NCBI RefSeq assembly: GCF_018881965.1
Contig: NZ_JACVPI010000001.1
Location: 62,001 to 126,000, forward strand
Origin: Polynucleobacter sp. JS-Polo-80-F4
Lineage (GTDB): Bacteria; Pseudomonadota; Gammaproteobacteria; Burkholderiales; Burkholderiaceae
Direction of reading: 5' to 3'
Length of the DNA: 64,000 bases
Part shown: positions 47,911 to 64,000 of the stretch, piece after piece
Layout of the letters: each line of letters starts with the position of its first letter
How positions within the stretch are numbered: the first letter of the stretch is position 1
Translations under genes and position numbers: made by a program
The notes under the pieces: model-generated
What the model was told of the DNA's origin: nothing
Database searches by the model: none
Seen by the model: only the letters and a program-made list of their open reading frames with translations

Positions 47911-47941
47911 GAAATATATATTTCATAATCATGACAATCAA
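47911..47941 (-). promoter_or_regulatory. arsR promoter and palindromic operator
   Basis: On the minus strand TTGATT (47941-47936) and TATATT (47918-47913) are spaced by 17 bp. The -10 is covered by the perfect palindrome GAAATATATATTTC (47911-47924), which would let bound ArsR block the promoter. Confidence 0.6.
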
Positions 47942-47969
47942 TGTCATAAAACTGACTTATAAGTGTCAT
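47941..47969 (+). promoter_or_regulatory. PHO box upstream of H1-like gene and ppk2
   Basis: Three 7-bp units in the same direction at exact 11-bp steps: ATGTCAT (47941), CTGACTT (47952), GTGTCAT (47963), close to the PhoB unit CTGTCAT with A/T-rich 4-bp spacers. The ATG is at 48057. The -10 is not clear. Confidence 0.65.
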
Positions 47970-48056
47970 ATTTGCTTGAAAAGTACAAGAATAAAACGTA
48001 GGATTGGGTCGAGAAGATCAAATCAACGAAACCAACAATCAATTTAGGAATACATC

Positions 48057-49099: not shown

Positions 49100-49103
49100 A
49101 TCT

Positions 49104-50009
49104 TTAGAACACTTCAGGTACGTACATCTGAGGAGGCACTGGCCCGCGTAGGTAGTCTGGATTATGAACACGCTTTGGCAAAGTAATTACTGGATGATCA
49201 ATCTCTTTATAAGGGATCTGATCTAACAAATGCGTAATACAGTTTAAGCGGGCTTTTTTCTTATCATTAGCAGCAACCACCCACCAAGGCGCTTCAGGAA
49301 TATGCGTGCGCTCCAGCATGGTTTCTTTGGCTTTGGTGTAAGCCTCCCAGAGCCTTCTTGCTTCTAGGTCCATTGGGCTTAACTTCCATTGCTTTAATGG
49401 ATCATGAATGCGCATCATGAAGCGGTTGTATTGCTCATCGTCAGAAATGGAGAACCAATATTTGATGAGAATAATTCCGGAGCTAATCATCATGCGCTCA
49501 AGATCGGGGACTGTTCTTAAGAACTCTTCGTACTCATCATCAGTACAAAATCCCATGACTTTCTCAACGCCAGCACGGTTGTACCAGCTTCGATCAAATA
49601 GAACGATCTCACCGCCAGCCGGTAACTGAGAAATATATCTTTGGAAGTACCACTGCGTTTTCTCACGCTCGTTGGGTGCAGGTAATGCCACTACCTTACA
49701 AACACGAGGATTGAGACGCTGAGTAATGCGCTTAATAGCCCCGCCCTTACCTGCTGAATCTCTTCCTTCAAATAAGACTGCTACCTTAAGCTTATTTTCT
49801 ACCACCCAGTCTTGAAGCTTTACCAACTCACCCTGGAGTCTAAAGAGCTCACGGAAGTAGACATTGCGTGGAATTTGGGAGCTCTCGCTGCCATCAGGCG
49901 AAAGCCTATCATCATCGAGCTCCATTTCAAGCTCTTCATCCATGCTATCAAGAATCTCTTCTTGAGCACGGCGATACCACTCGGCCATTTCTGTATGCTT
50001 CGATGTCAT
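49104..50009 (-). CDS. ppk2: Polyphosphate kinase 2 (PPK2) family protein
   Basis: 301 aa. An acidic N-terminal extension (about 45 residues, DEELEMELDDD) precedes the PPK2 domain with Walker A EGRDSAGKGG (81-90), and LFDRSWYNRAGVEKVMGFC with the Walker B Asp at 139. It is the canonical member of the two and most like class I nucleoside-diphosphate enzymes. AGGAG lies 9 bp before the ATG. A PHO-box-like promoter lies at 50033-50066. Confidence 0.94.
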   Translation of the reverse strand: MTSKHTEMAEWYRRAQEEILDSMDEELEMELDDDRLSPDGSESSQIPRNVYFRELFRLQGELVKLQDWVVENKLKVAVLFEGRDSAGKGGAIKRITQRLNPRVCKVVALPAPNEREKTQWYFQRYISQLPAGGEIVLFDRSWYNRAGVEKVMGFCTDDEYEEFLRTVPDLERMMISSGIILIKYWFSISDDEQYNRFMMRIHDPLKQWKLSPMDLEARRLWEAYTKAKETMLERTHIPEAPWWVVAANDKKKARLNCITHLLDQIPYKEIDHPVITLPKRVHNPDYLRGPVPPQMYVPEVF

Positions 50010-50032
50010 TGGTTCCCACTCCTAGTGGTAGA

Positions 50033-50066
50033 TTTATAACTAGAAATGATGACACATTTATTACAT
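50033..50066 (-). promoter_or_regulatory. PHO-box-like promoter of the second ppk2
   Basis: Minus-strand units ATGTAAT (50066-50060) and GTGTCAT (50055-50049) are 11 bp apart; exactly 10 bp further is a -10-like TATAAA (50038-50033). The units match CTGTCAT at 5 and 6 of 7. Confidence 0.55.
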
Positions 50067-50855
50067 CAGGCGATGATTGCCTTTTAATTGATTGGAAATG
50101 GCCTCTTGACTGTGCAAAGCCAGCCACTTTCGGTCTTTAGATGCCTCCGGGCTTGCTCCTGAGGGCGAAATAAAGTTCAACTCAACAACTAGCTGGCGAT
50201 TATTCAAGATCTTCGCCATGGACTCCAGCAGCCCCATATCTCCAATAAAGGCAGCCACCTCACTTCTGTCGCCTGATGGCAATGATTTATAGGTAATTGC
50301 CAAGGAATAGACTGGCACCTGAGCAATAACGGCTGATTCAAATAAATTCGGTTTGAATGGGAGAACGCCCTCACCTATTGTGGAGGTGCCCTCCGGAAAA
50401 ATGCAGACAGACTGAGTTTTGAGTACATCACTCACTTCACTCGCAACATACTTTCCATGACGTGCGCTATCACGCTTAATGAATACCGTACCTAATTGCT
50501 TGGCCATCCATCCAAATACTGGCCAGCCCGCCACATCCGATTTGGCGACAAATCGGATGGGCTTGAATGCATTAATCGCATGGATATCCATCCAGGAGAT
50601 ATGGTTTGACGCCAGCAAATATGGAGCAGAAGGAAGTATCTCGTGATTCTGCAACCTTAAGGTAATTCCAAAAATATCTAATAATTTTTTTGACCAATTC
50701 TGGATCAGCTTATTTTTAGCTTCATAGGTAGCAAATGGAAATCGCAAGAACAGCGTAACCAATCCACCAATTACGTGACTCCATACCTGAATCCAAGACC
50801 ATATAGTGGCCAAGCACTCGAATAGGGAATGTCTTATGGTTTGATTCTGACTCAT
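50061..50855 (-). CDS. PlsC-type acyltransferase, OlsA-like
   Basis: 264 aa. An N-terminal helix is followed by the acyltransferase blocks NHISWMD (His85-Asp90), SARHGKYVASEV and FPEGTSTIG. This is the LPLAT fold of 1-acylglycerol-3-phosphate acyltransferases and of OlsA, which adds the second acyl chain to lyso-ornithine lipid. It is divergent from an operon that contains an OlsB-like gene, so an OlsA role is favoured by context; a housekeeping PlsC role cannot be excluded. Confidence 0.85.
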   Translation of the reverse strand: MSQNQTIRHSLFECLATIWSWIQVWSHVIGGLVTLFLRFPFATYEAKNKLIQNWSKKLLDIFGITLRLQNHEILPSAPYLLASNHISWMDIHAINAFKPIRFVAKSDVAGWPVFGWMAKQLGTVFIKRDSARHGKYVASEVSDVLKTQSVCIFPEGTSTIGEGVLPFKPNLFESAVIAQVPVYSLAITYKSLPSGDRSEVAAFIGDMGLLESMAKILNNRQLVVELNFISPSGASPEASKDRKWLALHSQEAISNQLKGNHRLM

Positions 50856-50895
50856 ATGAGGTAAGAATATAAATCAATTGTTAAAAATAATTGCT

Positions 50896-50924
50896 TCGTC
50901 ATAAAACTGTCTTGGAACTGTCAC
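50896..50924 (+). promoter_or_regulatory. PHO box of the lipid-remodelling operon
   Basis: Three units at exact 11-bp steps: TCGTCAT (50896), CTGTCTT (50907), CTGTCAC (50918). A weak -10 (CATACT, 50933-50938) follows and the ATG is at 50960. Confidence 0.75.
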
Positions 50925-50959
50925 TCTAGTTTCATACTCAGTAGGCTTAATACTGTTTC

Positions 50960-51769
50960 ATGATGCATTACAAAGCCATCTGGATTTCAGACGTACACCT
51001 AGGAACATCAGGGTGTCAGGCAGACTACCTTCTCGATTTCCTAAAACACAACGAAGCTGATAAATATTATCTCGTCGGTGACATTATTGATGGCTGGAGA
51101 CTGAAAAAGTCATTCTATTGGCCTCAATCACATAACGATGTAGTGCAAAAGCTGTTGCGTAAAGCACGTAAAGGTAGCGAAGTAATCTACGTCCCTGGAA
51201 ATCATGATGAAAGCGCTAGACAGTTTTTTGGACTCTCTTTTGGAGACGTCAAAGTCGTTGAGGAAGTTATTCATACAACGGTAGACGGTAGAAAGCTATG
51301 GGTAACGCATGGCGATCAGTTTGATGGCGTGATGCAGTATGCCAAGTGGCTTGCCTATGTTGGCGACAACCTGTATTCGTTCATTCTTTACGTCAATCGC
51401 TACTTTAATATGATCCGCGCCAAAATGGGTCTGCAGTACTGGTCACTATCTCAGTATCTTAAGCACCAAGTAAAAAATGCAGTCAGCTATATCGCAGACT
51501 TTGAGCACATTATGGCCAGAGAGGCCCGCTTACGAGGCTGTGATGGGGTTGTTTGTGGGCATATTCACAAAGCAGAGATTCGCGAGATCGATGGACTGCT
51601 GTATTGCAACGATGGTGATTGGGTTGAAAGCCTCTCCGCTCTTGTTGAAACACAAACCGGCGAACTCAAACTGATTTACTGGACACATATCAAGGGTGAA
51701 CCAGTTGAGACCCCTCAAATCACCCTTCAACCTACTATCGAATCACTTATCAAAGAGGCTGTGCTATGA
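50960..51769 (+). CDS. PlcP-like phospholipase C / LpxH-like metallophosphoesterase
   Basis: 269 aa calcineurin-type phosphoesterase. Metal ligands are in SDVHLG (Asp11, His13), GDIIDGW, GNHDE (about 80-84), THGDQFD and GHIHKAE. Annotation pipelines would call it UDP-2,3-diacylglucosamine diphosphatase, but the PlcP enzymes of phosphate-starved bacteria belong to the same group and remove the phospho-head of phosphatidylcholine or phosphatidylethanolamine to give diacylglycerol. A PHO box, and a glycosyltransferase overlapping by ATGA, make PlcP the better reading (inference). Confidence 0.86.
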   Translation: MMHYKAIWISDVHLGTSGCQADYLLDFLKHNEADKYYLVGDIIDGWRLKKSFYWPQSHNDVVQKLLRKARKGSEVIYVPGNHDESARQFFGLSFGDVKVVEEVIHTTVDGRKLWVTHGDQFDGVMQYAKWLAYVGDNLYSFILYVNRYFNMIRAKMGLQYWSLSQYLKHQVKNAVSYIADFEHIMAREARLRGCDGVVCGHIHKAEIREIDGLLYCNDGDWVESLSALVETQTGELKLIYWTHIKGEPVETPQITLQPTIESLIKEAVL

Positions 51770-52794
51770 AAATTATGATTATCACTGATGCATGGGATCC
51801 ACAGGTGAACGGCGTTGTCCGAACCCTCAAGCAAACCCGTGCTGAATTAACTGCCATGGGTCATGAAGTAGAGATGATTACGCCAAATGGCTTTAAATCC
51901 ATTCCTTGCCCAACTTATCCTGATATCGCCCTATCACTCTTCCCAGGCAAAGAAGTAGCTCGTTGCATTAAAGAATTTGCTCCCGATGCAATGCATATTG
52001 CAACAGAGGGCCCACTAGGCTTATCTGCACGTGCCTACGCAGTCAAAAATCGTCTACCGTTTTCCACCGCTTATCACACCCGCTTCCCAGAATATGTCAA
52101 AGCGCGTACTGGCATTCCTTTGGCAATTACTTATGCGTTTATTCGCTGGTTCCATGGCCCATCAATGGCAGTAATGGCACCAACTATTGTTGTTAAAGAT
52201 GATTTAGAAAAATATGGCCTCAAGAATGTCGTGCTGTGGTCAAGAGGCGTGGATCTTGATATTTTTAAGATGCAAGATTCAAAAGCCTTGAACACTGCCC
52301 ATCCTATCTTTTTATATGTAGGCCGGGTTGCTGTTGAGAAAAATATCAATGCATTCTTAGAAATTGATTTACCAGGTTCGAAGTGGGTGGTAGGAGACGG
52401 TCCAGCCATGGCTGGAATAAAAGAAAAATACCCAGAAGTGAACTACCTGGGAGTATTGCAACAGCATGAATTAGCAAAAGTGTATGCAGCGGCTGATGTA
52501 TTTGTATTTCCGAGTAAGACAGACACATTTGGCTTGGTTTTACTTGAGGCAATGGCTTGTGGCACACCGGTTGCAGCCTATCCTGTTACAGGACCTATTG
52601 ATGTTTTAGGAAACTCCAATTCTGGCGCAATGGATGAAGACTTACGCGTGGCTTGCATGCAGGCATTGAAGATTCCTCGCGAGGTAGCGCGCGCACATGC
52701 CGAAAAGTTCTCCTGGAGAGCTGCTTCAGAACAATTTGCCAATCATCTCAAGCCAGTGCCGACACCAGAAGTGCACGTCACTGCACTAGCCTAA
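51766..52794 (+). CDS. GT4-family glycosyltransferase (Agt-like)
   Basis: 342 aa GT-B enzyme. The N-terminus has the acceptor-side ITDAWDPQVNGVVRTLKQT; the C-terminus has VFVFPSKTDTFGLVLLEAMACGTPVAAYPV with the E-x7-E nucleotide-sugar motif. Such PimB-like enzymes, next to PlcP, glycosylate diacylglycerol to phosphorus-free glycolipids. It overlaps the phosphoesterase stop by 4 bp. Confidence 0.9.
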   Translation: MKIMIITDAWDPQVNGVVRTLKQTRAELTAMGHEVEMITPNGFKSIPCPTYPDIALSLFPGKEVARCIKEFAPDAMHIATEGPLGLSARAYAVKNRLPFSTAYHTRFPEYVKARTGIPLAITYAFIRWFHGPSMAVMAPTIVVKDDLEKYGLKNVVLWSRGVDLDIFKMQDSKALNTAHPIFLYVGRVAVEKNINAFLEIDLPGSKWVVGDGPAMAGIKEKYPEVNYLGVLQQHELAKVYAAADVFVFPSKTDTFGLVLLEAMACGTPVAAYPVTGPIDVLGNSNSGAMDEDLRVACMQALKIPREVARAHAEKFSWRAASEQFANHLKPVPTPEVHVTALA

Positions 52795-52803
52795 AGAAAG
52801 TTC

Positions 52804-53214
52804 ATGTTGAACGCTCCATACCATATCGACCAAAATCCCCATAAGGGCAATCGTGGTCTTGCCAGGGCATGGCATGCAGCCAAAAACTCTTGGTGTGGGT
52901 TGGTATATGCATTTATGGAAGAAAGTGCTTTTAGACAAGAACTTACTTTATTTGCATTGCTAACACCGGTTGCCTGCTTGCTGCCGATTTCACTGCTAGA
53001 AAAAGCATTACTAGTTTCTTCATTGGTTATGGTTCTTGTGATTGAACTTCTTAACTCAAGCGTAGAAGCAGCAATCGATCGCATTTCATTCGAACATCAT
53101 GATCTCTCTAAGCGAGCAAAAGATTTTGGTAGTGCCGCTGTCATGCTTGCTCTGCTTGTGGCCACCCTTCTCTGGGCAGCTGTCTGTGCCCCCCTCATAT
53201 TTAATGTCAATTAA
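52804..53214 (+). CDS. dgkA: Diacylglycerol kinase
   Basis: 136 aa with three helices. Signature regions EESAFRQELTLFA and VLVIELLNSSVEAAIDRIS contain the catalytic Glu and the conserved Glu-Asn pair of DgkA. It rephosphorylates diacylglycerol to phosphatidic acid in the inner membrane, and would recycle what the PlcP-like enzyme releases. It starts 9 bp after the glycosyltransferase stop. Confidence 0.93.
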   Translation: MLNAPYHIDQNPHKGNRGLARAWHAAKNSWCGLVYAFMEESAFRQELTLFALLTPVACLLPISLLEKALLVSSLVMVLVIELLNSSVEAAIDRISFEHHDLSKRAKDFGSAAVMLALLVATLLWAAVCAPLIFNVN

Positions 53215-53222
53215 GGCTAACT

Positions 53223-54146
53223 ATGTCTGATATTCCTAACCCAATCGGCTCATTTGAGATTTTCGCCCCCAAGAAAGTCAAGGCATTCAAAAGAAAGAAG
53301 CCAAGCGCATTTAAAAAACTCTCTAAAAAGTTAGCCAAGAAGCTTTTTGGTAAAAAGTTTGCGACTAAGACAAGAGCTGAACTCAGAGATGTTGATATCA
53401 CCCCCGCCGTTCAGATAGATAAACCCAAAAAACCTGCTTTTCAGATTATTTGGGCGAGCACTCCTGGCGAAGTTAAAGAAGCGCAAAGATTACGCTTTAA
53501 GGTGTTTGCTGAAGAAATGGGTGCTAACCTCCCTAAAAATGCTGAAGGCTTAGATGTTGATGAATTTGATTCGTATTGCGATCATTTATTGATTCGTGAT
53601 CAAGATACCCTCAAAGTAGTTGGCACTTATCGCGTGCTGCCACCACATAAAGCACTAGAAATTGGTCGCCTCTACTCTGATTCTGAGTTCGATCTCTCCC
53701 GCATTGACCACCTCCGCCCGAAATTGGTTGAATTAGGTAGATCCTGCGTTCACCAAGACTATCGCTCAGGCGCAGTCATCATGGCTCTATGGAGTGGCTT
53801 AGCCCAGTACATGCAGAAGAATGGTTATGAAATCATGTTGGGTTGCGCTAGCATCCCGATGGCTGATGGCGGACATTTTGCGGCCAGCCTTTACAACTCG
53901 CTAGGCAACGACCAAATGGCGCCAACAGAGTTCCACGCCTTCCCACGTTTACCTTTACCTTTAGATAAATTAAATGGTGGCTTGGATGTCCAACCTCCAC
54001 CATTGATTAAGGGCTATCTAAAGCTTGGCGCAAAAATATGTAGCGCTCCAGCATGGGATCCAGACTTCAATACGGCTGACTTGTTAACCATGCTGCGTCT
54101 CTCAGAAATCAACCCACGTTATGCAAAGCATTTCTTAGGCTTGTAA
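53223..54146 (+). CDS. OlsB-like N-acyltransferase (GNAT, hemolysin-like)
   Basis: 307 aa. A basic Lys/Phe-rich head of about 50 residues (KKVKAFKRKKPSAFKKLSKK) precedes an acyl-homoserine-lactone-synthase-like fold with EAQRLRFKVFAEEMGANL, DEFDSYCDHLLIRD, VVGTYRVLPP and ELGRSCVHQDYRSG. These features match OlsB, which makes lyso-ornithine lipid from ornithine and acyl-ACP. It is 8 bp downstream of dgkA. The substrate amino acid is inferred. Confidence 0.85.
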   Translation: MSDIPNPIGSFEIFAPKKVKAFKRKKPSAFKKLSKKLAKKLFGKKFATKTRAELRDVDITPAVQIDKPKKPAFQIIWASTPGEVKEAQRLRFKVFAEEMGANLPKNAEGLDVDEFDSYCDHLLIRDQDTLKVVGTYRVLPPHKALEIGRLYSDSEFDLSRIDHLRPKLVELGRSCVHQDYRSGAVIMALWSGLAQYMQKNGYEIMLGCASIPMADGGHFAASLYNSLGNDQMAPTEFHAFPRLPLPLDKLNGGLDVQPPPLIKGYLKLGAKICSAPAWDPDFNTADLLTMLRLSEINPRYAKHFLGL

Positions 54147-54168
54147 TCTCAGCGCATTCATTGAAAGC

Positions 54169-54199
54169 AAAAGCCACTTCAGATTGAAGTGGCTTTTTT
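54169..54199 (+). terminator. Rho-independent terminator of the lipid operon
   Basis: GCCACTTC and GAAGTGGC form a perfect 8-bp stem around AGATT, with an A-run before and a run of six T after. Confidence 0.9.
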
Positions 54200-54237
54200 A
54201 TGCTTACTTTAAGATTTATTTGAAGCTTATTTTAGGC

Positions 54238-55812
54238 TTACTTAAAACTTACCTGGTAGGAGTGACCAATTCTTTCCCACTCTGCAGCCTCTTTCATCAG
54301 ACTAAACTCGGTTAAAGGATGTTCGGCTGCCCACTCTTTAGAAAGGCTCACAAGATAAGAGCCACCATGTTCGGAAACCTTGACCTTAGGAAAGTTAACG
54401 TCGTTTCGACCCCGACAGAGCACCTGCGCCAGTCTTAAACAAAAGAGCATGCGCCAGTCTTCAAAACTATGATTATTCGCCAACTTACCCAACTTGCCGG
54501 TATGCCCAATTAATAGCGCTGCAAGTCTTGCTTGATCATTTTTAGAAAATCCTGGCATGTCGGCATTGCCCGCTATGTAAGCAGAATGCTTGTGATATCC
54601 ATTGTGGGCGATAGACAAACCAATTTCATGGAGGTTAGCTGCCCACTGCAATAAAGCAACGTTATCTGCTCTACTCTCTGCCTCAGGTTTAGGTAATTGC
54701 TGTAAAAAATCAGCAGCCAATTTACCCACCCTGTCAGCCTGCTCTCGATCGACTGCATATCGCTGCATAAATTGCTCAACAGTGACATAACGCATGTCAT
54801 GATGTTGTGAGCGGCCAAGCAGGTCATATAAAACACCGCTACGTAAAGCGGCATCCGTAACTTCCATTTCTTCGATACCCAATTCATCGAATGCTGCCAA
54901 CATAATTGCTAGACCACCTGGCCATACCGCTCTTCTATCGTCCTTAAGACCTACTAATTCAACCTGATTTACATGCTCATACTTCAGGAGATGCTTTTTG
55001 AGATTCTTCAAGCCCTCACGGGTAATGAGGCCACTTGCACCATTGACGCGGCCCATCGTCAAACCGTCACCAGGTCCATTAAAGTGGTTATTTGCAATCA
55101 AATCGGCTAAAGCTCTAGCAGTTCCAGAGGAGCCAATCACCTGCTTCCAGCCACTCTTCAAATAAGCACCTGAGATAACCTGTATTTCACGGCGGGCAGC
55201 TAGCTCAGCCTCCTTAAAGGCATGCGCATCAATATTTCCCTTAGGGAAAAAACGCATACTGTGAGAAACGCAGCCAATATAAAGACTCTCCATCAGCTTT
55301 GGCTCATAGCCTTTACCGATAATGAATTCTGTAGAACCGCCACCAATATCTATAACCAGCCTATTACCCTGGATAGCCTGGACTTCATGGGCTGCTCCAA
55401 TATAAATAAGTCGAGCCTCTTCTACGCCTGCAATCACTTCGATTGGAAACCCTAAGGCTTCTTGCGCATCCTGAACAAATTGTTGGGAATTTTTAGCAAC
55501 CCGTAAGGTGTTTGTGGCAACCGCTCGTACATTAGAAGGATCAAATCCACGGATGCGCTCACCAAAACGCCTAATAGCAATTAATCCCCGCTGATAAGCA
55601 TCATTACCAAGCAATTTATTTTCGGTAAGGCCTGCAGCCAGACGTACCGTTTCGCGCAAGGTATCGATTGGGCGTAATTGCGTACCGGATGGTGTATTTA
55701 CTGCTTGAGCCACTAGCATACGAAAACTATTGGATCCCAAATCAACCGCAGCAACTAGGTCTGCGGAATTCACTAAAGGATCTACGGGATTGCTGGCCAA
55801 AATATTCCCCAA
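54238..55812 (-). CDS. ppx: Exopolyphosphatase (Ppx/GppA family)
   Basis: 524 aa. The ASKHA-type phosphatase opens VAAVDLGSNSFRMLVAQ; DIGGGSTEFIIG and GSSGTARALADLI complete the P-loop regions, and the C-terminal HD-like helical domain follows (LLQWAANLHEIGLSIAHNGYHKHS). It removes terminal phosphates from polyphosphate (or pppGpp). It sits in the polyphosphate neighbourhood and carries a PHO-box-like promoter just upstream. Confidence 0.93.
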   Translation of the reverse strand: MGNILASNPVDPLVNSADLVAAVDLGSNSFRMLVAQAVNTPSGTQLRPIDTLRETVRLAAGLTENKLLGNDAYQRGLIAIRRFGERIRGFDPSNVRAVATNTLRVAKNSQQFVQDAQEALGFPIEVIAGVEEARLIYIGAAHEVQAIQGNRLVIDIGGGSTEFIIGKGYEPKLMESLYIGCVSHSMRFFPKGNIDAHAFKEAELAARREIQVISGAYLKSGWKQVIGSSGTARALADLIANNHFNGPGDGLTMGRVNGASGLITREGLKNLKKHLLKYEHVNQVELVGLKDDRRAVWPGGLAIMLAAFDELGIEEMEVTDAALRSGVLYDLLGRSQHHDMRYVTVEQFMQRYAVDREQADRVGKLAADFLQQLPKPEAESRADNVALLQWAANLHEIGLSIAHNGYHKHSAYIAGNADMPGFSKNDQARLAALLIGHTGKLGKLANNHSFEDWRMLFCLRLAQVLCRGRNDVNFPKVKVSEHGGSYLVSLSKEWAAEHPLTEFSLMKEAAEWERIGHSYQVSFK

Positions 55813-55839
55813 AAATGGACTGCTGTATCAATTGTGTCT

Positions 55840-55873
55840 ATTTTATGTAAAAACAATGACACATTGATGAAAA
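55840..55873 (-). promoter_or_regulatory. PHO-box-like promoter of ppx
   Basis: Minus-strand units TTTTCAT (55873-55867) and GTGTCAT (55862-55856) are 11 bp apart; 10 bp further is TAAAAT (55845-55840), 28 bp before the ATG. The first unit matches CTGTCAT at 5 of 7. Confidence 0.5.
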
Positions 55874-55910
55874 GACCAGCAAGCCTTTATGGCTGGGGGT
55901 GCTATTTAAG

Positions 55911-56138
55911 CTAGGCTGCCAAATTTTGCTCTGAGCTTGAGCAATCTCGATTGCCAAAACTGCACAAAATGCAGCAGTCACCTGATTTAGGCTTCAGAAT
56001 CGCACTACAGGAACGGCAGCGGTAGAAGTGCTGGGAACCCTCTTCGGAGCTGATGATTTCAGAGGCCTGGCAATGTGGGCAAGTAACAGTAGCTTGCGGG
56101 TATTGGATAGTCTTATTCACACTGCAATACTGAATCAA
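55911..56138 (-). CDS. Small zinc-ribbon protein (GDCCxxCS type)
   Basis: 75 aa. Two CXXC pairs (CPHCQ and CRSCS) and a terminal cysteine cluster GDCCILCSFGNRDC form a compact metal-binding protein of a widespread uncharacterised family. A later start at the VTCPHC region cannot be excluded. It lies between ppx and mgtC, on the same strand. Confidence 0.7.
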   Translation of the reverse strand: MIQYCSVNKTIQYPQATVTCPHCQASEIISSEEGSQHFYRCRSCSAILKPKSGDCCILCSFGNRDCSSSEQNLAA

Positions 56139-56174
56139 GATTATGTCAATAGTGTGTCAAAGCAGATACACCGC

Positions 56175-56891
56175 TTAATCTGTTGTACTGGGGCTCCAGA
56201 ATGCTTGGGTTACAAAGTCCTGATCGGCAATTTTTTCAATGAGCTTATCCATCTCATCACCATCTACAGCCGACGCCGTTAATACCGCTTGAATTTCTAC
56301 ATCTTCACTACCAAATTGATGCACTTCAATATCTTGGGTTTGGTAGCCCGCCTCTTCCAGCGTTCTAATAAATTGCTTTAATGCATGCTTTTGAGCATGT
56401 TTAGGGGTAATGATGAATATGGAATTTGTTACCTCAACCGAAACGGTATCAAGGGGTTGGCGATTAATAAACGTCACCACAGGACGCAACAGTGTATTGG
56501 CTGCCAACACGAATACAGTTGCTAATCCAGCCTCCAATATCAAGTCCGCGCCAGCGCAGGCTCCCACCGCTCCTGATGCCCATAGGGTTGCCGCTGTGTT
56601 AATCCCGCGAACATTACCTTCTTCACGCATGATGACACCAGCGCCTAAAAATCCAATGCCTGAAACGACATATGCCATTACATGTACTGCCCCATCATGA
56701 CCGGTAAGACGATTCGCAGCATCTACAAAAATGGCAGCACCGATAGCAACCAAGATGTTGGTTCGCAAACCAGCAGTTCTTTGGCGATATTGACGCTCAA
56801 GACCAATTAAGCCGCCAAAGAAAAAGGCAGCAGTCAGGCTGATTGCAGTATCAGTCAGGGATGCATAGTTAATGTTGCTAACAAATTCCAT
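56175..56891 (-). CDS. MgtC/SapB family membrane protein
   Basis: 238 aa. The hydrophobic MgtC domain has FFFGGLIGLERQYRQRTAGLRTNILVAIGAA, GIGFLGAGVIMREEGNVRGINTAATLWASGAVGACAG; the C-terminal 85 residues form a soluble ACT-like domain. MgtC proteins support growth at low magnesium and regulate phosphate/ATP balance. It starts 11 bp after phoA, so the two form an operon. Confidence 0.92.
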   Translation of the reverse strand: MEFVSNINYASLTDTAISLTAAFFFGGLIGLERQYRQRTAGLRTNILVAIGAAIFVDAANRLTGHDGAVHVMAYVVSGIGFLGAGVIMREEGNVRGINTAATLWASGAVGACAGADLILEAGLATVFVLAANTLLRPVVTFINRQPLDTVSVEVTNSIFIITPKHAQKHALKQFIRTLEEAGYQTQDIEVHQFGSEDVEIQAVLTASAVDGDEMDKLIEKIADQDFVTQAFWSPSTTD

Positions 56892-56902
56892 GGTACTGGT
56901 AA

Positions 56903-58648
56903 TTATTTTGAGCCGAGACCTAGGGACTCTACCATCACTTTAAATACCTCAGTGTTATCCATGAAACCCTTGAATTTTTCGGATCCTGGGCCCATCGCAT
57001 TCAGAACAGCATCATCGGCCGTATGCACACCAGAATCTTGATACGACGGCAAATTGCCCCCCACATGAATGGCATCTTCCTGAAGCTGGATATATTTTGG
57101 ATTGGCTACATATTTACCGGAATCATCTTTAACGGCGGGAACAAATGTGCCATCTAGTTTTGGATGCAAGGTTTCGTAGTGATCCGGATAGTTGCCATAA
57201 AAGAATGCGATGCGTTTAGAGACATCAATCTTATTTGGGTATCCCTGTATATCGGCCTTAGGATAATTTGGATAACCTGCCTCAGCATAAATACCCACTT
57301 TTTCACGCAACGGTCCCGGCTTGTCATCATGCACCACTCCACTAATTGAGCCACTGTGCGTATGATCTGGCGTCACAATGATCAGGGTATCGGGATGGGT
57401 TTTAGCAAAGTCCTTGGCAATCTGGACCGCATTACTGAGCATGATGGTGTCAAACGCCGCCCGCTCCCAATCCAGGGGGTGATTAAACTTATCGATCAGC
57501 GCAGCTTCCACCATCAAGAAAAATCCATTGGGATTTCTGGATAGAACATCAATCGCAGATTGCGTCATTTCTGTGAGGTCTGGTTGATTGGGGTATTGCT
57601 CAACCGTATTCTTTTTAAGGTATAGACGATCTAGAGAACCGTCCATGTTATCCGGATGAAACACGCCGAATAATTTTCTTGTTCCCTTACTCTCTGATGC
57701 CAAAAGTAATTCTTGTTTTGTAAAAGCTAACTGATAGCCATTCGACTTAAAGTTTTCAACTAAATTCTGCTCATCTTTACGCTTCGAACCCTTGGATGAC
57801 TTAGGATAAAAGTAAGCCGAACCTCCGCCTAGAATAACTTCCGCACCACTGGATAGCAATTGGTCAGCAATATATTGCTTATCAGCCCTCCGCCTTGTAT
57901 GCGAGACCATAGCGCCTGGAGTAGCATCCTCCAATTCCGCATCCGAAACGATGCCCACTGCCATTTTGGTATTGCGTTTGATCAATTCTGCAATGGTTTC
58001 TACCTTGGGATGCGAAAGATTGTCATTTGCACGGGATACATAAACGCCCATGGCATTTACTGCTGTTTTATGACCAGTTGTATAAGCACTCATTGAATTA
58101 GCGGAGTCTGTAATAAGCGAATCAGACCCGGATGTGCCAATCATTGCTGTACTAGGCATATCGTCAAAAGCCAATCGTCCCTGATACTTTCCCTCCTGAA
58201 TACCTTTAGAAAGAACCCTAGCAGTGGTGCGATTGGCAATCGTCATACCATCACCAATAAATAGAATCACATTCTTTACGCGGCGAGGACCAGTAGCATA
58301 AACATCCCAATTGACCTGCAAACGCTCCTGAGATGTTCGAGCGACAACTTGATATTTACCCGCTTTGGATAGTTGAACATCCCTAAATAGAATGGAACTA
58401 CCTTTACCATTTTCATTCGCAATAAACTCTGATTTAGCGCTTATGGTTTTATTAATGGGTGCACCATTAAGCTCAATAATGACCTCTTTAGGATCGAGCA
58501 CGGAGTTGAATTCAATCTTGATATCAAACTTAGATCCGGCCAAAATAGAGGCTTGATCGATTGGATAAACTGCTGCAGCCTGAGCTATACCAGTAAGGCT
58601 TCCAAATAAAATAAGAAATACAACTCTTAGAAATGGTGATGTTTTCAT
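56903..58648 (-). CDS. phoA: Alkaline phosphatase
   Basis: 581 aa with a signal peptide cut near AQAAAV. A beta-sandwich-like N-terminal domain (about residues 25-125) precedes the phosphatase domain: VILFIGDGMTIANRT, nucleophile region TDSANSMSAYTTGHKTAVN, TPDHTHSG. It releases phosphate from organic esters in the periplasm. A PHO box with canonical spacing to a -10 lies just upstream; mgtC follows in the same unit. Confidence 0.9.
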   Translation of the reverse strand: MKTSPFLRVVFLILFGSLTGIAQAAAVYPIDQASILAGSKFDIKIEFNSVLDPKEVIIELNGAPINKTISAKSEFIANENGKGSSILFRDVQLSKAGKYQVVARTSQERLQVNWDVYATGPRRVKNVILFIGDGMTIANRTTARVLSKGIQEGKYQGRLAFDDMPSTAMIGTSGSDSLITDSANSMSAYTTGHKTAVNAMGVYVSRANDNLSHPKVETIAELIKRNTKMAVGIVSDAELEDATPGAMVSHTRRRADKQYIADQLLSSGAEVILGGGSAYFYPKSSKGSKRKDEQNLVENFKSNGYQLAFTKQELLLASESKGTRKLFGVFHPDNMDGSLDRLYLKKNTVEQYPNQPDLTEMTQSAIDVLSRNPNGFFLMVEAALIDKFNHPLDWERAAFDTIMLSNAVQIAKDFAKTHPDTLIIVTPDHTHSGSISGVVHDDKPGPLREKVGIYAEAGYPNYPKADIQGYPNKIDVSKRIAFFYGNYPDHYETLHPKLDGTFVPAVKDDSGKYVANPKYIQLQEDAIHVGGNLPSYQDSGVHTADDAVLNAMGPGSEKFKGFMDNTEVFKVMVESLGLGSK

Positions 58649-58679
58649 GGAAAAAAGGGCTTGGGATAGGTCAAACTAG

Positions 58680-58713
58680 ACTATCTTCCAATCAAATGAC
58701 AATTTGATGACGG
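58680..58713 (-). promoter_or_regulatory. PHO box and -10 of phoA
   Basis: Minus-strand units CCGTCAT (58713-58707) and TTGTCAT (58702-58696) are 11 bp apart, followed after exactly 10 bp by GATAGT (58685-58680). The start codon is at 58648. Confidence 0.75.
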
Positions 58714-58736
58714 CCATAAAGCGCTTTACTTAAATA

Positions 58737-60170
58737 CTATTTTGTCTTTGCAACCTTAAGTCTTCCACTCTTAACCGCCTTACGAAATAACTCAAAATCG
58801 CGCTCATTCTGCTTCGCATAGGATCTGGCAAATGAATACATTGCCTCACTAAACTCTTTATCTTGACCGCAATACCCAGCGAGCTCTGCTGCATCCCCAG
58901 AGCGCGCATGGCCAAGAGCGAGCGCCCAACCAAATAGCTTGGAATAGTCCGCAAAATTCTTTAAGGAAATACCCCCCGGGCCTATCTCGATGCCGCCTTT
59001 CATATCGCGTAATTGACGCAGATAAAACCCTTGGCTTTTATCAACATCGAACTGCATGGAGCCGTAATTCAAAAAGATATCCGGAGCGCCTTGGAGCAAT
59101 CTCTGACCAGCTACTACACGCAGACCCATATCTCGATAAATGGATTCGCCCAAGTAAGGACTTAAGACAGATTTTTGTGCTTCCTTATATTGCAAGAATA
59201 AGGGGTCATTTGCACTATCCCCCTCAAAATATAGGACCATGCAATTAGTTCCCACACTTCCAACGCCAACTACCTTACGTGCAAAATCTTTCAAAACGTA
59301 ACGCTCAAACAAAATCTTGCGATCAGCTAGTAAGGTGCTTGAATAATTCAGCAAAGCCTTATCTATTAGGGAGCTCAAAGGGTGTCCAAAAGCATTCTTT
59401 TTGAAGTGCTCAATTAATGGGGGCTTATTGATAATCTTTCGGTCTTTGCCAACAAGGGTAGTGAGTTTTTGTAATACCTGTACATTCCCTTGCCCCTTGG
59501 TCTGATTGAAGTAGACATCAATTTTTTTTTGATGTTCTTTACTAAAATTCTTGCGAACATCTGCTTCGCCAATGAATTCTTGCGCCAAATCCAGATAAGG
59601 CATTTTGGCATATTGAGCCAGCCGTTTTTGGTACTCAGCGCATATACGGAATGCTAATTTTTTGCTTAATGCTTTATCCCCACCATTGCTTTCACAAGCA
59701 ATGACTGCGCTCGTAACAAGACGCTTCATATCCCACTCCCAGCTACCGGGAAGAGTTTCGTCAAAGTCATTAATCCCAAATACCAGTCGATGTTCTGTAG
59801 TTCCAAACAAGCCAAAATTTGACACATGCATATCACCGCAAAGCTGAACTGTAATATTGGTGTATGGCTGGCTCGCCAAATCTTGAGCCATGATGGCTGC
59901 ACCACCGCGATAAAAAGCAAAGGGTGACTGAAGCATGCGCTCATAGCGAATCGGAATCAAAGACTCAATTCGAGTCTTGGCTTGATTCTCCAAAATGCTA
60001 ATGGGATCAATTCGATGTTTTGGCGGAGTGTATATACCTTGCTCTGCAATGCTCACTACTTTTCGCAAGGCCTTACCATCACCCATACGCTTTTTAATGC
60101 TGGGCCTAGGGTTACTAAAGGACTCTACCGATCTAAGAACAGCAAATTTGGGTTTCTTCTGTGAGGGCAT
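58737..60170 (-). CDS. DUF2252 family protein
   Basis: 477 aa. RYERMLQSPFAFYRGGAAIMAQDLA, CGDMHVSNFGLFG, FGINDFDETLPGSWEWDMKRLVTS and LGHARSGD are the DUF2252 signature; the family has a kinase-like fold and no known activity. It stands 88 bp upstream of phoA on the same strand, but phoA has its own PHO box. Confidence 0.9.
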   Translation of the reverse strand: MPSQKKPKFAVLRSVESFSNPRPSIKKRMGDGKALRKVVSIAEQGIYTPPKHRIDPISILENQAKTRIESLIPIRYERMLQSPFAFYRGGAAIMAQDLASQPYTNITVQLCGDMHVSNFGLFGTTEHRLVFGINDFDETLPGSWEWDMKRLVTSAVIACESNGGDKALSKKLAFRICAEYQKRLAQYAKMPYLDLAQEFIGEADVRKNFSKEHQKKIDVYFNQTKGQGNVQVLQKLTTLVGKDRKIINKPPLIEHFKKNAFGHPLSSLIDKALLNYSSTLLADRKILFERYVLKDFARKVVGVGSVGTNCMVLYFEGDSANDPLFLQYKEAQKSVLSPYLGESIYRDMGLRVVAGQRLLQGAPDIFLNYGSMQFDVDKSQGFYLRQLRDMKGGIEIGPGGISLKNFADYSKLFGWALALGHARSGDAAELAGYCGQDKEFSEAMYSFARSYAKQNERDFELFRKAVKSGRLKVAKTK

Positions 60171-60230
60171 GGGCTACCTGAGCAATGGATATACCCGCCC
60201 ATCTTAAAGCCATTCCAAATACAGCGCGAA

Positions 60231-60671
60231 CTAGGAATTGAGGTAATTTAACTTCTTCTGAATGCCTGCAGGCAGTGTAGAGAACCAAATACTATCGTCC
60301 CCTACCGCAGGTAGTATTTGGCCATATTCAACCATTTGACCCGGGGTAATTTCATCAATATATGCCCAGATCTGATGCCCAGCCAATCCTGAAGCGCCCT
60401 GAAGTGCTACCTCAAGCTCAACGAGAAGTTGCTTTTTCATTTGCTCACTTCTACCGTTGCGGATTTGTCCACTCAAAAAGAGATGGGGTTCATCAAGAAG
60501 AACGCCACCAATAAAGCAATCATGTAAATCTAATTGTTTAAAAATCACTTGAGCAAAATAGGCCTCTGCACCAGTGATATCAGCATGAATTTTAGTAATC
60601 GCCTTAGCAACCGTAAATCTTTGATGGGTTGTCAGCGAAAAGCCAGCGTAATTAACGGTATATGTAGCCAT
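60231..60671 (-). CDS. Tautomerase-superfamily protein without the N-terminal proline
   Basis: 146 aa. TYTVNY at the start, AITKIHADITGAEAYFAQVIF, LFLSGQIRNGRSEQMKKQLL and IWAYIDEITPGQMVEYGQILP match the Tautomerase_3 (cis-CaaD-like) group. In this superfamily Pro2 becomes the catalytic N-terminal base; here codon 2 is GCT (Ala). It begins 22 bp after the arsC paralog and may be co-transcribed. The function is open. Confidence 0.78.
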   Translation of the reverse strand: MATYTVNYAGFSLTTHQRFTVAKAITKIHADITGAEAYFAQVIFKQLDLHDCFIGGVLLDEPHLFLSGQIRNGRSEQMKKQLLVELEVALQGASGLAGHQIWAYIDEITPGQMVEYGQILPAVGDDSIWFSTLPAGIQKKLNYLNS

Positions 60672-60693
60672 GTTGAGATGCGTTTATAAAACT

Positions 60694-61191
60694 CTAGTTA
60701 CATTGTTGATGGATGGAGTGAAGCTCATCTTTTATCTGCAAGTGATCCAACTTATCCATTGGAAGATCAAGTAATAGCTCGATACGATTGCGTAAACCCA
60801 TCTCGACTTTTCTAAAAGCATCCCACATTTCTTGCTCGCTACCAGTCACCGCTGCTGGATCAATAAAACCCCAATGAGCAGTCGTCGGATGGCCGGGCCA
60901 GTAAGGGCACTCCTCACCTGCAGCAGAGTCGCAAACGGTGATAATAAAGTCCATGTGGGGCGCATCATGTCTACCGAACTCATCCCAAGTTTTACTTCTG
61001 AGTAATTCGAGTGGATACCCCATCTCTCTTGCAAGCTTAAGTGCAATTGGATGAACAAATTGCTTTGGATTTGAGCCAGCAGAATAACCTATAAATCGGC
61101 CATGACTCAGAGTGGTTGCAAGGGCCTCACCCAAAATGGAGCGTGCTGAGTTACCGGTGCACAAAAAGAGAATGTTATAAGGACGAGTCAT
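60694..61191 (-). CDS. Second ArsC-type reductase / low-molecular-weight phosphatase
   Basis: 165 aa. P-loop CTGNSAR at residues 11-17 and [22 protein letters not shown] with the redox cysteines, closely like the arsC at 47090-47569. It is separate from any arsR or acr3 and is followed by the tautomerase-like gene. It could be an arsenate reductase used when phosphate is low, or a phosphatase. Confidence 0.88.
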   Translation of the reverse strand: MTRPYNILFLCTGNSARSILGEALATTLSHGRFIGYSAGSNPKQFVHPIALKLAREMGYPLELLRSKTWDEFGRHDAPHMDFIITVCDSAAGEECPYWPGHPTTAHWGFIDPAAVTGSEQEMWDAFRKVEMGLRNRIELLLDLPMDKLDHLQIKDELHSIHQQCN

Positions 61192-61217
61192 GCAACCTCA
61201 GTTAAACATTAGATATT

Positions 61218-61391
61218 TCAAATGATTTCATCAAGACGTAATGCATATTTTCTGTCTATCAGAAATTGACTCACTCTTGAATCATTTAAAGCAGGAGTCC
61301 TAAGCTCTTGCTCCTTTAACCCTGAGACCACCTTCTCCCGCACTTCATTTCTCAGGACATTTGATAAATATTTAGTGAGAGTAGCATTCAT
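61218..61391 (-). CDS. Possible small ORF, 57 aa
   Basis: It encodes a charged helical peptide starting MNATLTKYLSNVL and ending YALRLDEII. Upstream, TTGAAT (61463-61458) and TATACA (61441-61436) form a sigma-70-like promoter with a 16-bp spacer. No good ribosome binding site is visible, so it may be chance. No family recognised. Confidence 0.35.
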   Translation of the reverse strand: MNATLTKYLSNVLRNEVREKVVSGLKEQELRTPALNDSRVSQFLIDRKYALRLDEII

Positions 61392-61477
61392 AAGCTTTGC
61401 TTTATAAAAATAGTGAATGCAATCATCCTAGGCTATGTATATTTCAATTTTATTAATATTCAATGGCCGGGGACAAG

Positions 61478-61500
61478 AAAAAAACCTAGCGTATGCTGGG
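61478..61500 (-). terminator. Rho-independent terminator of the small Pho-linked transcript
   Basis: On the minus strand CCCAGC and GCTAGG pair around ATAC, followed by seven T (61484-61478). It ends any transcript coming from the PHO box at 61771-61799. Confidence 0.75.
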
Positions 61501-61591
61501 CTATAAAGGAAGACAAGATACCTTATCTTGGTCAGATGAGATCCGACGATTCAATGTACCTTTGGTTCATTACATCTAGATAACTAATGAC

Positions 61592-61684
61592 TTAGCTACC
61601 AAGTCGATGAACCATATAACGGTTTGCGTAAGCTACCCTTGCCTCACTCCATGCTTGCCATAAGCGTGTGATTAATTTTTTCAT
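61592..61684 (-). CDS. Candidate Pho-regulated small protein, 30 aa
   Basis: ATG at 61684 with AAGGA 7 bp upstream; stop TAA at 61592. The peptide starts MKKLITRLWQAWSEARVAY and ends VHRLGS: basic, with an amphipathic helix pattern that suggests membrane association. It sits between a minus-strand PHO box (61771-61799) and a terminator (61478-61500), so a transcript of about 250-270 nt is expected. The RNA itself could be the functional product. Confidence 0.5.
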   Translation of the reverse strand: MKKLITRLWQAWSEARVAYANRYMVHRLGS

Positions 61685-61754
61685 ATTGCATCCTTGTGGT
61701 GAAAGATTTTCAGGCATCCCTATTTTGTAGAGAAGCGACATTGACTACACTTTG

Positions 61755-61799
61755 ATTATTCATGATGAAGATGACAGGGTGAAGTCGCTTTTATGACGC
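61755..61799 (-). promoter_or_regulatory. PHO box and -10 pointing to the small transcript
   Basis: Three minus-strand units at exact 11-bp steps: GCGTCAT (61799-61793), GCGACTT (61788-61782), CTGTCAT (61777-61771). Exactly 10 bp after the last unit is AATAAT (61760-61755), a 5 of 6 match to TATAAT. Confidence 0.75.
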
Positions 61800-61858
61800 A
61801 ATCAACTAGCTGGGATAAACTGGGTTGTACCTATAACCATCTCCAATAAGGAAACGAC

Positions 61859-62335
61859 ATGTTTGATTGGGATATCTACGGAACTATTGCGCTCCGGCTG
61901 GCTTTAGCCTTGTTAGTTGGTGCCGTTCTTGGCCTCAATCGCTGGTTACACCATAAATCTGCCGGTATTCGCACGCACTCTTTAGTAGCTATAGGTTCGG
62001 CAACCGCCGTCATGCTCATCAGCGACTTTGTGAGAGATGATGCTCAATCAGTCAGCCGCGTTCTTCAGGGCCTTATTACCGGACTTGGCTTTTTGGGAGC
62101 TGGAGTGATCATTCGAGAACAACGCTCTCAAAGGGTTCATGGGCTGACTACGGCAGCCAGCCTTTGGGCCTGCGCCCTGATTGGGGCAGCCTTTGGAGCC
62201 GGGCAATTTGCGCTTGGAGGGCTGTCCTTGGGGGCGATTTTGATCACCCTACTGCTTGGCGGCCCCCTAGAAAGAATGGTTGCCAAGCTTAATGGCGTTA
62301 GAAGGGGCTCTGAAATTTCAGGGGATCCCGACTAA
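61859..62335 (+). CDS. MgtC/SapB family membrane protein, short form
   Basis: 158 aa. LALLVGAVLGLNRWLHHKSAGIRTHSLVAIGSA and GLITGLGFLGAGVIIREQRSQRVHGLTTAASLWACALIGAAFGAG give the MgtC domain; it lacks the soluble C-terminal domain of the copy at 56175-56891. AAGGAAA precedes the ATG. It is divergent from the small Pho-linked transcript. Confidence 0.9.
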   Translation: MFDWDIYGTIALRLALALLVGAVLGLNRWLHHKSAGIRTHSLVAIGSATAVMLISDFVRDDAQSVSRVLQGLITGLGFLGAGVIIREQRSQRVHGLTTAASLWACALIGAAFGAGQFALGGLSLGAILITLLLGGPLERMVAKLNGVRRGSEISGDPD

Positions 62336-62418
62336 ACCCCCTTAAAACACTCAAAAAAGCGAGTTTTGTCATATTTGTTTGATAGGATTGCCATCTTCGT
62401 CAATTACAAGATAAAGCC

Positions 62419-62619
62419 ATGAGTGATTACAAATATGCAGATGCAGTAAAACAGCTCCAGGAAAGTGGCGCTATTGGCCTAGTGGACCTTAAGAGCCTTC
62501 CTCATGAGGATCTTGAAGAGCTATTTGAAGAAATCAAAGTCTGGTGCCTATATGCCGGAGGCAAGACTGAAAAGCTTTGTAAAGAGTCTAAAAAGAAGAA
62601 GAAAAAGAAGAAAGATTAG
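62419..62619 (+). CDS. Small protein with polylysine tail
   Basis: 66 aa. An acidic helical part (ADAVKQLQESGAIGLVDLKSLPHEDLEELFEEIKVWCLYAGG) is followed by a C-terminal run of eight lysines before the final Asp. Family not recognised. The lysine run could bind nucleic acid or polyphosphate, which is only a guess. It converges on phoR with 2 bp between stops. Confidence 0.65.
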   Translation: MSDYKYADAVKQLQESGAIGLVDLKSLPHEDLEELFEEIKVWCLYAGGKTEKLCKESKKKKKKKKD

Positions 62620-62621
62620 CC

Positions 62622-63920
62622 CTAGAGAGCTATACGCTCTTTAGGAAAGCGAAGTATGAAAGTGCTGCCCTTACCTGGCGTGCTTTCAATAATGAGCTGA
62701 GCTTGATGTCGACTGGCAATATGCTTAACGATTGCTAATCCCAGGCCAGTTCCCCCTGTATCCCGAGAACGACTTCTATCAACGCGATAAAACCGCTCAG
62801 TAAGTCTTGAAATATGTTCGGATGCAATACCTGGGCCGCTATCTGTTACAGAAAATTCTCCCTGCCCTTCAGTATTGAGCTTCCAACTCACATCAATTGC
62901 CCCAGAGTCAGGCGTATAACGAATGGCATTGGAGACTAAATTACTAAACGCAGAAAGTATCTCTCTTTCATCACCCAATAAAGAAGATGGATCTTCTACT
63001 TTAAAACTAAAACTATGTTTACCTTTAGATAAAGCCTCAGCATCATTCCTGAGCAATGCCATTAAGGTTTCGACATTGACACCATTGGTGGCCGCAGGTA
63101 ACGAGTTGGCCTCTAAGTTAGCCAAGGTCAATAAATCCTCAACCAAACTTTTCATGCGTTGCGCCTGCGACATCATCATGTCGAAATACTGATCACGTTG
63201 ACCCTTCTCAAGATCTAAGGTTTGAACTGTCTCCAAAAAGCCCATCAATACAGTGATAGGCGTTCTCATCTCATGAGAAACGTTGGCAACGAAATCACGA
63301 CGCATCGCATCTATTTTTTGTAGGTCAGTGACATTTTGGACTAACAATAAGTGACGTTGATTGCCAAACGGAAATAACTGTAGCAGCAAGCTAAGACTGC
63401 TATTTGGCCCCATTCGCTCCAATAGCAAGGGCTCTTCGAAGTTACGCTTATTAATGTATTGAATGAACTCTGGGCGACGAATGAGGAAGTTAATTCGCTG
63501 CAATGCATCGCGCTTGAAGTTCAAACCAAAAAAACGTTCTGCAATTGCGTTACACCATTCAATTTGATCATTTTGATCAAGCATCAGAATGCCATTAGGT
63601 GAAGCTTGAAAAGCTTCAATAAAGTGGTCATGCTGCTGTTCAATGCTCAGCATTCTTTGTTTCAATGATTTAACTAAACGTTGTAATCGAAACAAAACCT
63701 CTTCCCAAAAACCACTAGGCAAGGACATAGACTCAACTGAGTCAGTTTGAATGGCCTTTTGAAGACGAGCTAAATTGATGTACGAATAGACCAGAGGGAT
63801 GGATATCAAGGCCACTGTTGTCAAAATAGCCCATTGAGCACCCCAGTTATAAAGGGTGATAAAAGAGATTATCAAAACAACGCAAATAAGGAAAATGAAG
63901 CGACTTAAGGCGGAAATCAT
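62622..63920 (-). CDS. phoR: Phosphate-regulon sensor histidine kinase PhoR
   Basis: 432 aa. Two helices (about residues 6-24 and 30-48) are followed by a PAS-like domain (about 100-200), the H-box FVANVSHEMRTPIT with His216, N-box NLVSNAIRYTP and GTGLGLAIVKHI of the ATPase. This is the PhoR layout. It senses phosphate status through Pst/PhoU and phosphorylates PhoB, which would act on the PHO boxes in this window. PhoB probably lies beyond the right edge. Confidence 0.88.
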   Translation of the reverse strand: MISALSRFIFLICVVLIISFITLYNWGAQWAILTTVALISIPLVYSYINLARLQKAIQTDSVESMSLPSGFWEEVLFRLQRLVKSLKQRMLSIEQQHDHFIEAFQASPNGILMLDQNDQIEWCNAIAERFFGLNFKRDALQRINFLIRRPEFIQYINKRNFEEPLLLERMGPNSSLSLLLQLFPFGNQRHLLLVQNVTDLQKIDAMRRDFVANVSHEMRTPITVLMGFLETVQTLDLEKGQRDQYFDMMMSQAQRMKSLVEDLLTLANLEANSLPAATNGVNVETLMALLRNDAEALSKGKHSFSFKVEDPSSLLGDEREILSAFSNLVSNAIRYTPDSGAIDVSWKLNTEGQGEFSVTDSGPGIASEHISRLTERFYRVDRSRSRDTGGTGLGLAIVKHIASRHQAQLIIESTPGKGSTFILRFPKERIAL

Positions 63921-63962
63921 AGTGCAATCTTAGACGATCTCTGAAGCGCCCCAGAAATGAGT

Positions 63963-63986
63963 AAAAAAGCCTAAAAAATAGGCTTT
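63963..63986 (-). terminator. Rho-independent terminator upstream of phoR
   Basis: AAAGCCTA and TAGGCTTT form an 8-bp stem around five A; on the minus strand it is followed by a T-run. It would end a minus-strand transcript entering from beyond the window, so phoR may have its own promoter. Confidence 0.65.
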
Positions 63987-64000
63987 AGATATCGGTTGGG

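Follow-up and report, generated by a model that had tools for sequence, protein, structure and literature searches.

Promoters of the Pho regulon carry PHO boxes, which have been described as direct repeats of 11 bases with seven bases well conserved, CTGTCAT in Escherichia coli (E. coli) (PMC4415409, available in part). The sensor kinase of this regulon, PhoR, is itself contacted by other proteins. In Salmonella, MgtC binds PhoR, activates it and promotes its autophosphorylation (PMC6658541, available in part). Moreover, the small basic proteins of the DUF1127 family bind PhoR (PMC12501420, available in part). Here, we analysed a stretch of 64,000 nt, hereafter referred to as the window, from Polynucleobacter sp. 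JS-Polo-80-F4 (assembly GCF_018881965.1, contig NZ_JACVPI010000001.1, positions 62,001-126,000 of the forward strand), in which a 30-codon open reading frame (ORF) lies behind a PHO-type box, beside mgtC and phoR. Polynucleobacter is an abundant freshwater genus that is frequently phosphorus-limited. The three genes are located as follows.

61592..61684, minus strand: 30-codon ORF MKKLITRLWQAWSEARVAYANRYMVHRLGS and its stop (ATG at 61684, TAA at 61594-61592)
61859..62335, plus strand: mgtC, with a match to PF02308 (MgtC); divergent neighbour of the 30-codon ORF
62622..63920, minus strand: phoR, sensor kinase of the phosphate regulon, over the cut-off of TIGR02966

The product of the ORF is similar to the DUF1127 proteins (Agrobacterium SDPs and E. 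coli YjiS; PMC12501420, available in part) in being very short, basic and linked to phosphate, the link to phosphate control being here its place beside phoR and the PHO box. However, it has 30 residues where those proteins have 47-54, and its conserved residues differ. Membership in DUF1127 (PF06568) was rejected, as the 30-aa protein gave no profile match. DUF1127 was not found in any of the 61 genus genomes searched for it, and the E. coli control was positive. Charge pairing with an acidic PhoR segment was also rejected: PhoR residues 47-95, which on reading the sequence precede the PAS domain, lack acidic character in this case (net charge +2), so that the published DUF1127 charge model does not carry over. 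The locus also recalls that of Salmonella MgtR, likewise a very small protein encoded next to mgtC, with MgtC acting on PhoR (PMC6658541, available in part). In contrast to MgtR, the gene described here is divergent from mgtC, lies behind a PHO box and encodes a basic protein with no long hydrophobic span. MgtR is a short hydrophobic peptide that spans the membrane; a peptide of this type was rejected for the ORF, whose product, as read from the sequence, has charged residues throughout and a net charge of +5. If its target were PhoR, the protein would also be like the small MgrB-type feedback inhibitors, since its expression would be governed by the response regulator of the kinase on which it acts. 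MgrB differs in being a 47-residue membrane protein that acts on PhoQ.

All the parts from which the preliminary description had assembled a transcription unit (PHO box, AATAAT, AAGGA, ATG, ORF, stop, hairpins and seven T) lie where it placed them. Those upstream of the ORF are the following.

61793..61799, minus strand: PHO unit 1, GCGTCAT, whose complement starts ATGACG, at the -35 position of the plus-strand mgtC promoter
61782..61788, minus strand: PHO unit 2, GCGACTT, a weak middle unit
61771..61777, minus strand: PHO unit 3, CTGTCAT, nearest to the start
61755..61760, minus strand: -10 hexamer AATAAT, 10 nt past unit 3, like other Pho promoters in the genome
61690..61705, minus strand: 5'-UTR block CTTTCACCACAAGGAT with the ribosome binding site AAGGA (61695-61691); sole exact match in the genome

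The box is composed of three 7-base units at 11-base spacing, which are followed by 10 bases and then by AATAAT (61799-61755, minus strand). The other Pho-type promoters of the genome have the arrangement 7+4+7, ten bases, -10. Within the window they precede two ppk2 genes, an lpxH-like gene, ppx and phoA, and just outside it pstS and a porin-like gene, these names coming from a reading of the proteins. A position weight model was made from hand-picked sites of seven other Pho promoters, leaving out the box under study; it comprised 17 units, a 10-nt gap and -10 hexamers padded with TATAAT. The three-unit score of the box, 28.0 bits, has rank 1 over the scored positions on both strands of the 64 kb. 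Its two-unit score has rank 4 in the window, after three training sites, whose own ranks carry no meaning because they were hand-picked. What had been called a strong three-unit PHO box is therefore strong as a three-unit array and not as a pair, the middle unit agreeing with CTGTCAT at 3 of 7 bases. As in the PHO-box promoters of the Pho regulon (PMC4415409, available in part), the units are direct, 11 bases long and well conserved at seven bases, but here there are three of them, the middle one is weak and the distal one lies on the -35 of a divergent gene. These CTGTCAT-like direct repeats, 10 nt before a -10 hexamer and kept in relatives, suggest that the box is a target of PhoB.

The ORF is kept from start to stop in relatives within the genus, with a W-x-E-A-R-x-A-Y core and the end H-R-L-G-S. 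In an alignment of 40 rows, residues G29 and S30 are invariant, while W12, E14, R16, Y19, R22, H26 and L28 reach 90%. Substitutions were counted in 27 of the 33 genes of class 1, defined below, with comparisons limited to pairs sharing 65% identity or more (223 in frame and 207 for each other frame). The ratio pN/pS is 0.28 in frame, while the remaining frames give 1.25 and 1.21; pS in frame is 0.68, which is near saturation, and the largest differences are found at third codon positions. The ribosome binding site block, CTTTCACCAyAAGGAT, is largely conserved in 18 aligned class-1 loci. Purifying selection in frame, the fixed start and stop and the retained ribosome binding site bear out the earlier proposal of a small protein. 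Lack of conservation of both the ORF and the PHO box in close relatives had been named in advance as evidence against it, and both turned out to be conserved. Two database proteins have exactly 30 aa, one of them called 'hypothetical protein' (JGI) and the other carrying no name. The 30-aa protein matched no Pfam family up to E 5 and no NCBIfam family, and the Pfam search gave for one diverged class-3 variant a match to DUF3500 at E 0.076, which is below the cut-off. By its pattern of conservation, the ORF is a real gene of an undescribed small-protein family in the genus. An ORF standing by chance behind a real or chance box would be in keeping with its very short length and missing family name, but that reading is scarcely credible, being already contradicted by the conservation, the pN/pS, the PHO boxes and the fixed start and stop in many species.

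The protein had been described as basic and amphipathic. The first term agrees with its net charge of +5 and with a mean of +5.2 over the 40 rows. The second finds weak support, as the hydrophobic moment of residues 3-26 has a P of 0.07; strong amphipathicity was rejected, since the column-averaged moment has a P of 0.19 and its best angle is 60 degrees. The conservation moment peaks at 100 degrees per residue, the angle of a helix (P 0.03). The protein is probably helical, with one conserved face formed by W12, R16, Y19, R22 and H26.

Strong matches to the family (E 5.2e-8 or better) occur at 74 places in 63 of 186 Polynucleobacter genomes. Some match at E 0.1 is seen in 110 of the 186, the weak ones (E 1e-7 to 0.1) being candidates. 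Nine of ten records of named relatives are from Polynucleobacter and the remaining one is a metagenome-assembled Burkholderiaceae. Outside the genus, no convincing member was found in 399 genomes of 158 genera sampled across the order. Twelve of these genomes matched at E 0.01: five matches are strong and from the same genus, and the other seven were rejected because five fall within long frames (764-1187 aa), another within a frame of 129 aa, and the last contains an internal stop. A similar long frame within the genus, L019, looks like a topoisomerase subunit. As phoR is over the cut-off in 173 of the 186 genus genomes and the small gene has strong matches in about one third of them, the small gene is accessory and no core partner of PhoR.

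Seventy-five loci were assigned by hand to four classes according to their neighbours, leaving out of the counts L012 and L024 (same places as L052 and L058), L030-L038 (same places, from a DNA search) and the long frame L019. Class 1 consists of 33 loci next to phoR. In 32 of them, mgtC is the immediate upstream neighbour, in the opposite orientation, and most class-1 loci continue with a 57-aa ORF and then a low-molecular-weight phosphatase gene. At L066, the small gene stands at phoR without this mgtC alongside. The 23 loci of class 2 are divergent from corA or mgtC in 22 cases and adjoin phoR in 22, the exception, L052, lying about 24 kb from phoR. In class 3 (12 loci), the gene is second behind a 53-aa ORF, and a paralogue of a 66-aa ORF of the window is adjacent in 10. 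Class 4 comprises seven scattered loci. One genome (G007) has three copies and another (G031) two or three.

Some diverged copies were also seen. A second copy at L092, near 3601 (rc), is more diverged (MRKLINLFWKFLMTWAEARHAY...PIGS, 17 bits), and what may be a remnant, with a very weak match (MKKSIIKALWLT..., 3.7 bits), lies near 2172 of L160, a phoR locus. The class-4 loci L084, L091 and L093 encode 33-aa members ending in GHQLGS or GHQMGS, followed by short hairpin-like repeats as read by eye; they have no PHO-type box, so that their regulation must differ.

Positions 47900-64000 of the window, with 1186-8581 of L096, form a dense phosphate island with at least seven PHO-type promoters. Its genes are two ppk2-like, an lpxH-like, a ppx-like, an alkaline phosphatase-like and a DUF2252 gene and phoR, after which come phoB-, phoU-, pst- and corA-like genes, most names being a reading of the proteins. 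The island also has two arsenate-reductase-like low-molecular-weight phosphatase genes, 60694-61191 and 47090-47569 (both minus strand), the latter identified by similarity to the former; one such gene stands behind the small genes at most class-1 loci. A lysine-tailed 66-aa ORF (62419-62619, plus strand) adjoins phoR at nearly all phoR loci inspected and has a weak three-unit PHO-like match upstream, at 62366.

PHO-type boxes were found upstream of the small gene at 33/33 loci of class 1, 23/23 of class 2 and 12/12 of class 3 (68/68), and before two of the seven class-4 genes, being absent from the other five. The test takes the best box anywhere within 260 nt, and a pass is a score above the 99th percentile of a non-Pho background, window positions 1-47000; 2.4% of 720 background stretches pass. 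Two of the class-2 boxes, at L094 and L052, are questionable, and at some loci of this class the best three-unit score is located a long way upstream. With a stricter background taken from the Pho loci themselves, 27/33, 10/23, 5/12 and 0/7 loci of classes 1 to 4 pass; this background was replaced by window positions 1-47000 because its highest scores suggest that it contains real PHO boxes. The recurrence of PHO-type boxes in different contexts is the strongest sign of the place of this family in the phosphate response.

The preliminary description did not mention that the box overlaps the mgtC promoter, whose -35 position is occupied by the distal PHO unit. The -10 element of that promoter is the following.

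61816..61821, plus strand: mgtC -10 hexamer TAAACT (TACACT in most class-1 loci), 17 nt after ATGACG

Toward mgtC, the window therefore has the hexamers ATGACG (61793-61798) and TAAACT (61816-61821). Across class 1, the complement of unit 1 mostly starts with RTGAC, and [TC]A[CA]ACT follows RTGAC at 17 nt in 27 of 33 loci and at 18 nt in two. The four loci with neither spacing, L007, L041, L045 and L066, retain unit 1, which is thus likely a PHO unit in its own right. Five mgtC loci without the small gene were compared by eye: the -10 is kept in all five, so that it belongs to mgtC and the PHO box sits at the expected place of the -35. TGAC at 17 nt is present in one of the five; its absence from the other four makes it doubtful how much the -35 match contributes to mgtC, and this match may chiefly reflect a PHO unit. 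On binding the three units, PhoB should turn the small gene on and, judging from the geometry of the site, there is an even chance that it would also block mgtC. Such overlapping promoters predict opposite responses of the small gene and mgtC to phosphate.

The predicted RNA is about 270 nt long. Downstream of the ORF, it has the following elements.

61531..61547, minus strand: 3'-UTR hairpin GTCGGATctcATCTGAC, a covarying stem present at 17/33 class-1 loci
61514..61530, minus strand: hairpin CAAGATAAGGTATCTTG, named in the preliminary description; not consistently conserved
61478..61500, minus strand: terminator-like stem CCCAGC-ATAC-GCTAGG and T7 (hairpin 61500-61485, T 61484-61478), with one mismatch

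The hairpin at 61514-61530 is present as had been claimed, but its stem is not kept in several aligned relatives (e.g. L003, L039), and the one that relatives keep is the next upstream, at 61547-61531. A terminator of its own had also been ascribed to the gene. The hairpin with seven T is there, but the window stem has a C-A mismatch at a pair that is C-G in the other 15 of 16 distinct aligned rows, and a consensus scan did not list this stem. Hairpin and terminator were predicted from an alignment of 17 class-1 loci, in which six pairs have 13 cells changed on both sides. As many were reached by 1 and 0 of 500 shuffles, the shuffles making no correction for kinship, and slid controls gave 1-3 pairs and 1-3 cells. 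The fold of the whole transcript has no exceptional stability (z -1.37, matched by 21 of 200 shuffles), and Rfam gave no match at gathering in the window and none at E 1 in 61400-61860.

A regulatory RNA, or an RNA and a protein together, had been suggested for this transcript. The covariation at 17 class-1 loci agrees with an RNA element, but the hairpin is absent from the other 16 of 33, which have the same ORF and PHO-type box, so that the RNA is at most a second product. A dual-function RNA, which would encode the protein and, in part of the genus, base-pair as a small RNA through its 3' UTR (hairpin, CCAAGAtAA stretch and terminator), would account for the covarying hairpin and terminator at those 17 loci. 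It is a possible but tentative reading, given the 16 loci with ORF and box that lack the hairpin, the missing Rfam match, the overall fold (z -1.37) and shuffles that ignore kinship; the hairpin may only protect the 3' end. Secondary to the protein, the hairpin is perhaps an RNA element of part of the genus, serving for 3'-end protection or as a source of small RNA.

The succession of peptide, hairpins, terminator and downstream genes in many class-1 loci would also be expected of a leader peptide with an attenuator, where translation of the 30 codons sets readthrough into the 57-aa ORF and the phosphatase-like gene. That is very improbable, as the amino acids are conserved to the last residue, also in contexts without those downstream genes, and the 57-aa gene has its own conserved promoter in 23 loci. 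The 57-aa gene (MNATLTKYLSNVLRNE...RLDEII; 61218-61391, minus strand) is a second small gene, with 16 database relatives, none named for a function. Its promoter (61425-61458, minus strand) reads nnTTAAT-AAAA-nTGAAAT-10 nt-TAGGAT and has the PHO geometry with no GTCA core; the pattern occurs in 24 of the 75 loci, although at L064 it matches by chance at another place. This promoter is possibly a low-affinity PHO box or the site of a related regulator.

A PhoB-activated gene with a selected, translated basic protein of 30 residues is, as a whole, the likely reading of the locus. Phosphate starvation would very probably bring PhoB to the three-unit box and RNA polymerase to AATAAT, producing the terminated RNA; this step is drawn from the anatomy of the promoter and its conservation. 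The ORF is almost certainly translated, with the protein as the selected product. Occupancy by PhoB would hinder transcription of mgtC because the distal PHO unit covers the mgtC -35 position, and starvation would then exchange MgtC for the small protein, a step whose geometry leaves it evenly balanced. The protein may act in trans, through its conserved helix face and invariant GS end, on an inner-membrane partner in phosphate or magnesium homeostasis.

PhoR, as part of a feedback, is the single likeliest target, in view of the position of the gene beside phoR and mgtC, the lack of any DUF1127 match in the 61 genus genomes searched and the published PhoR binders; the assignment is a tentative one. 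Its role at PhoR would be that of a modulator that can be dispensed with. Alternatively, the protein may work on MgtC or CorA, as MgtR works on MgtC in Salmonella, tuning magnesium and phosphate jointly. MgtR has been named as a peptide that guides proteolysis of MgtC (PMC6658541, available in part). The gene is divergent from mgtC in class 1 and, at 22 of 23 class-2 loci, from either corA or mgtC. In addition, mgtC or corA adjoins 54 of 55 phoR-proximal members (L052 left out) versus eight of 20 phoR loci without the gene (Fisher P 6e-8, which ignores kinship and the hand-picking of the 20 from genomes without a strong match); these eight keep mgtC, and some corA too. Nevertheless, a target in MgtC or CorA is rather doubtful: class-3 and class-4 copies lie elsewhere, L066 is at phoR without this mgtC, and a protein of net charge +5 with no long hydrophobic stretch is unlike the membrane-spanning MgtR. 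Furthermore, should PhoB repress mgtC, both proteins would seldom be produced at the same time.

Returning to PhoR as the target, one PhoB operator could serve as a two-way switch that exchanges the partners of PhoR, which we consider unlikely. With phosphate present, MgtC would be made and would keep PhoR poised. Under starvation, PhoB would start the small protein and stop MgtC by covering the mgtC -35 position, and the small protein would then hold PhoR, or the PstSCAB-PhoU complex, in the starvation setting. If true, the genus would have in this small protein its own counterpart to control by DUF1127, of which none was found in the 61 genomes searched.

A small protein in a two-component regulon is of a known kind; for the 30-aa family and the overlapping promoters, no published record was found within a limited literature search. 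One of the best-studied regulons thereby gains a small-protein family, in a genus of fresh water. The evidence for regulation of this family is strong, some species carry several copies, and its location next to phoR and mgtC is well defined. This evidence and this location make the tuning of PhoR by a small protein and by MgtC directly testable in organisms in which DUF1127 was not detected. The sequence comparisons are pointing to an undescribed small protein in the phosphate control of Polynucleobacter.
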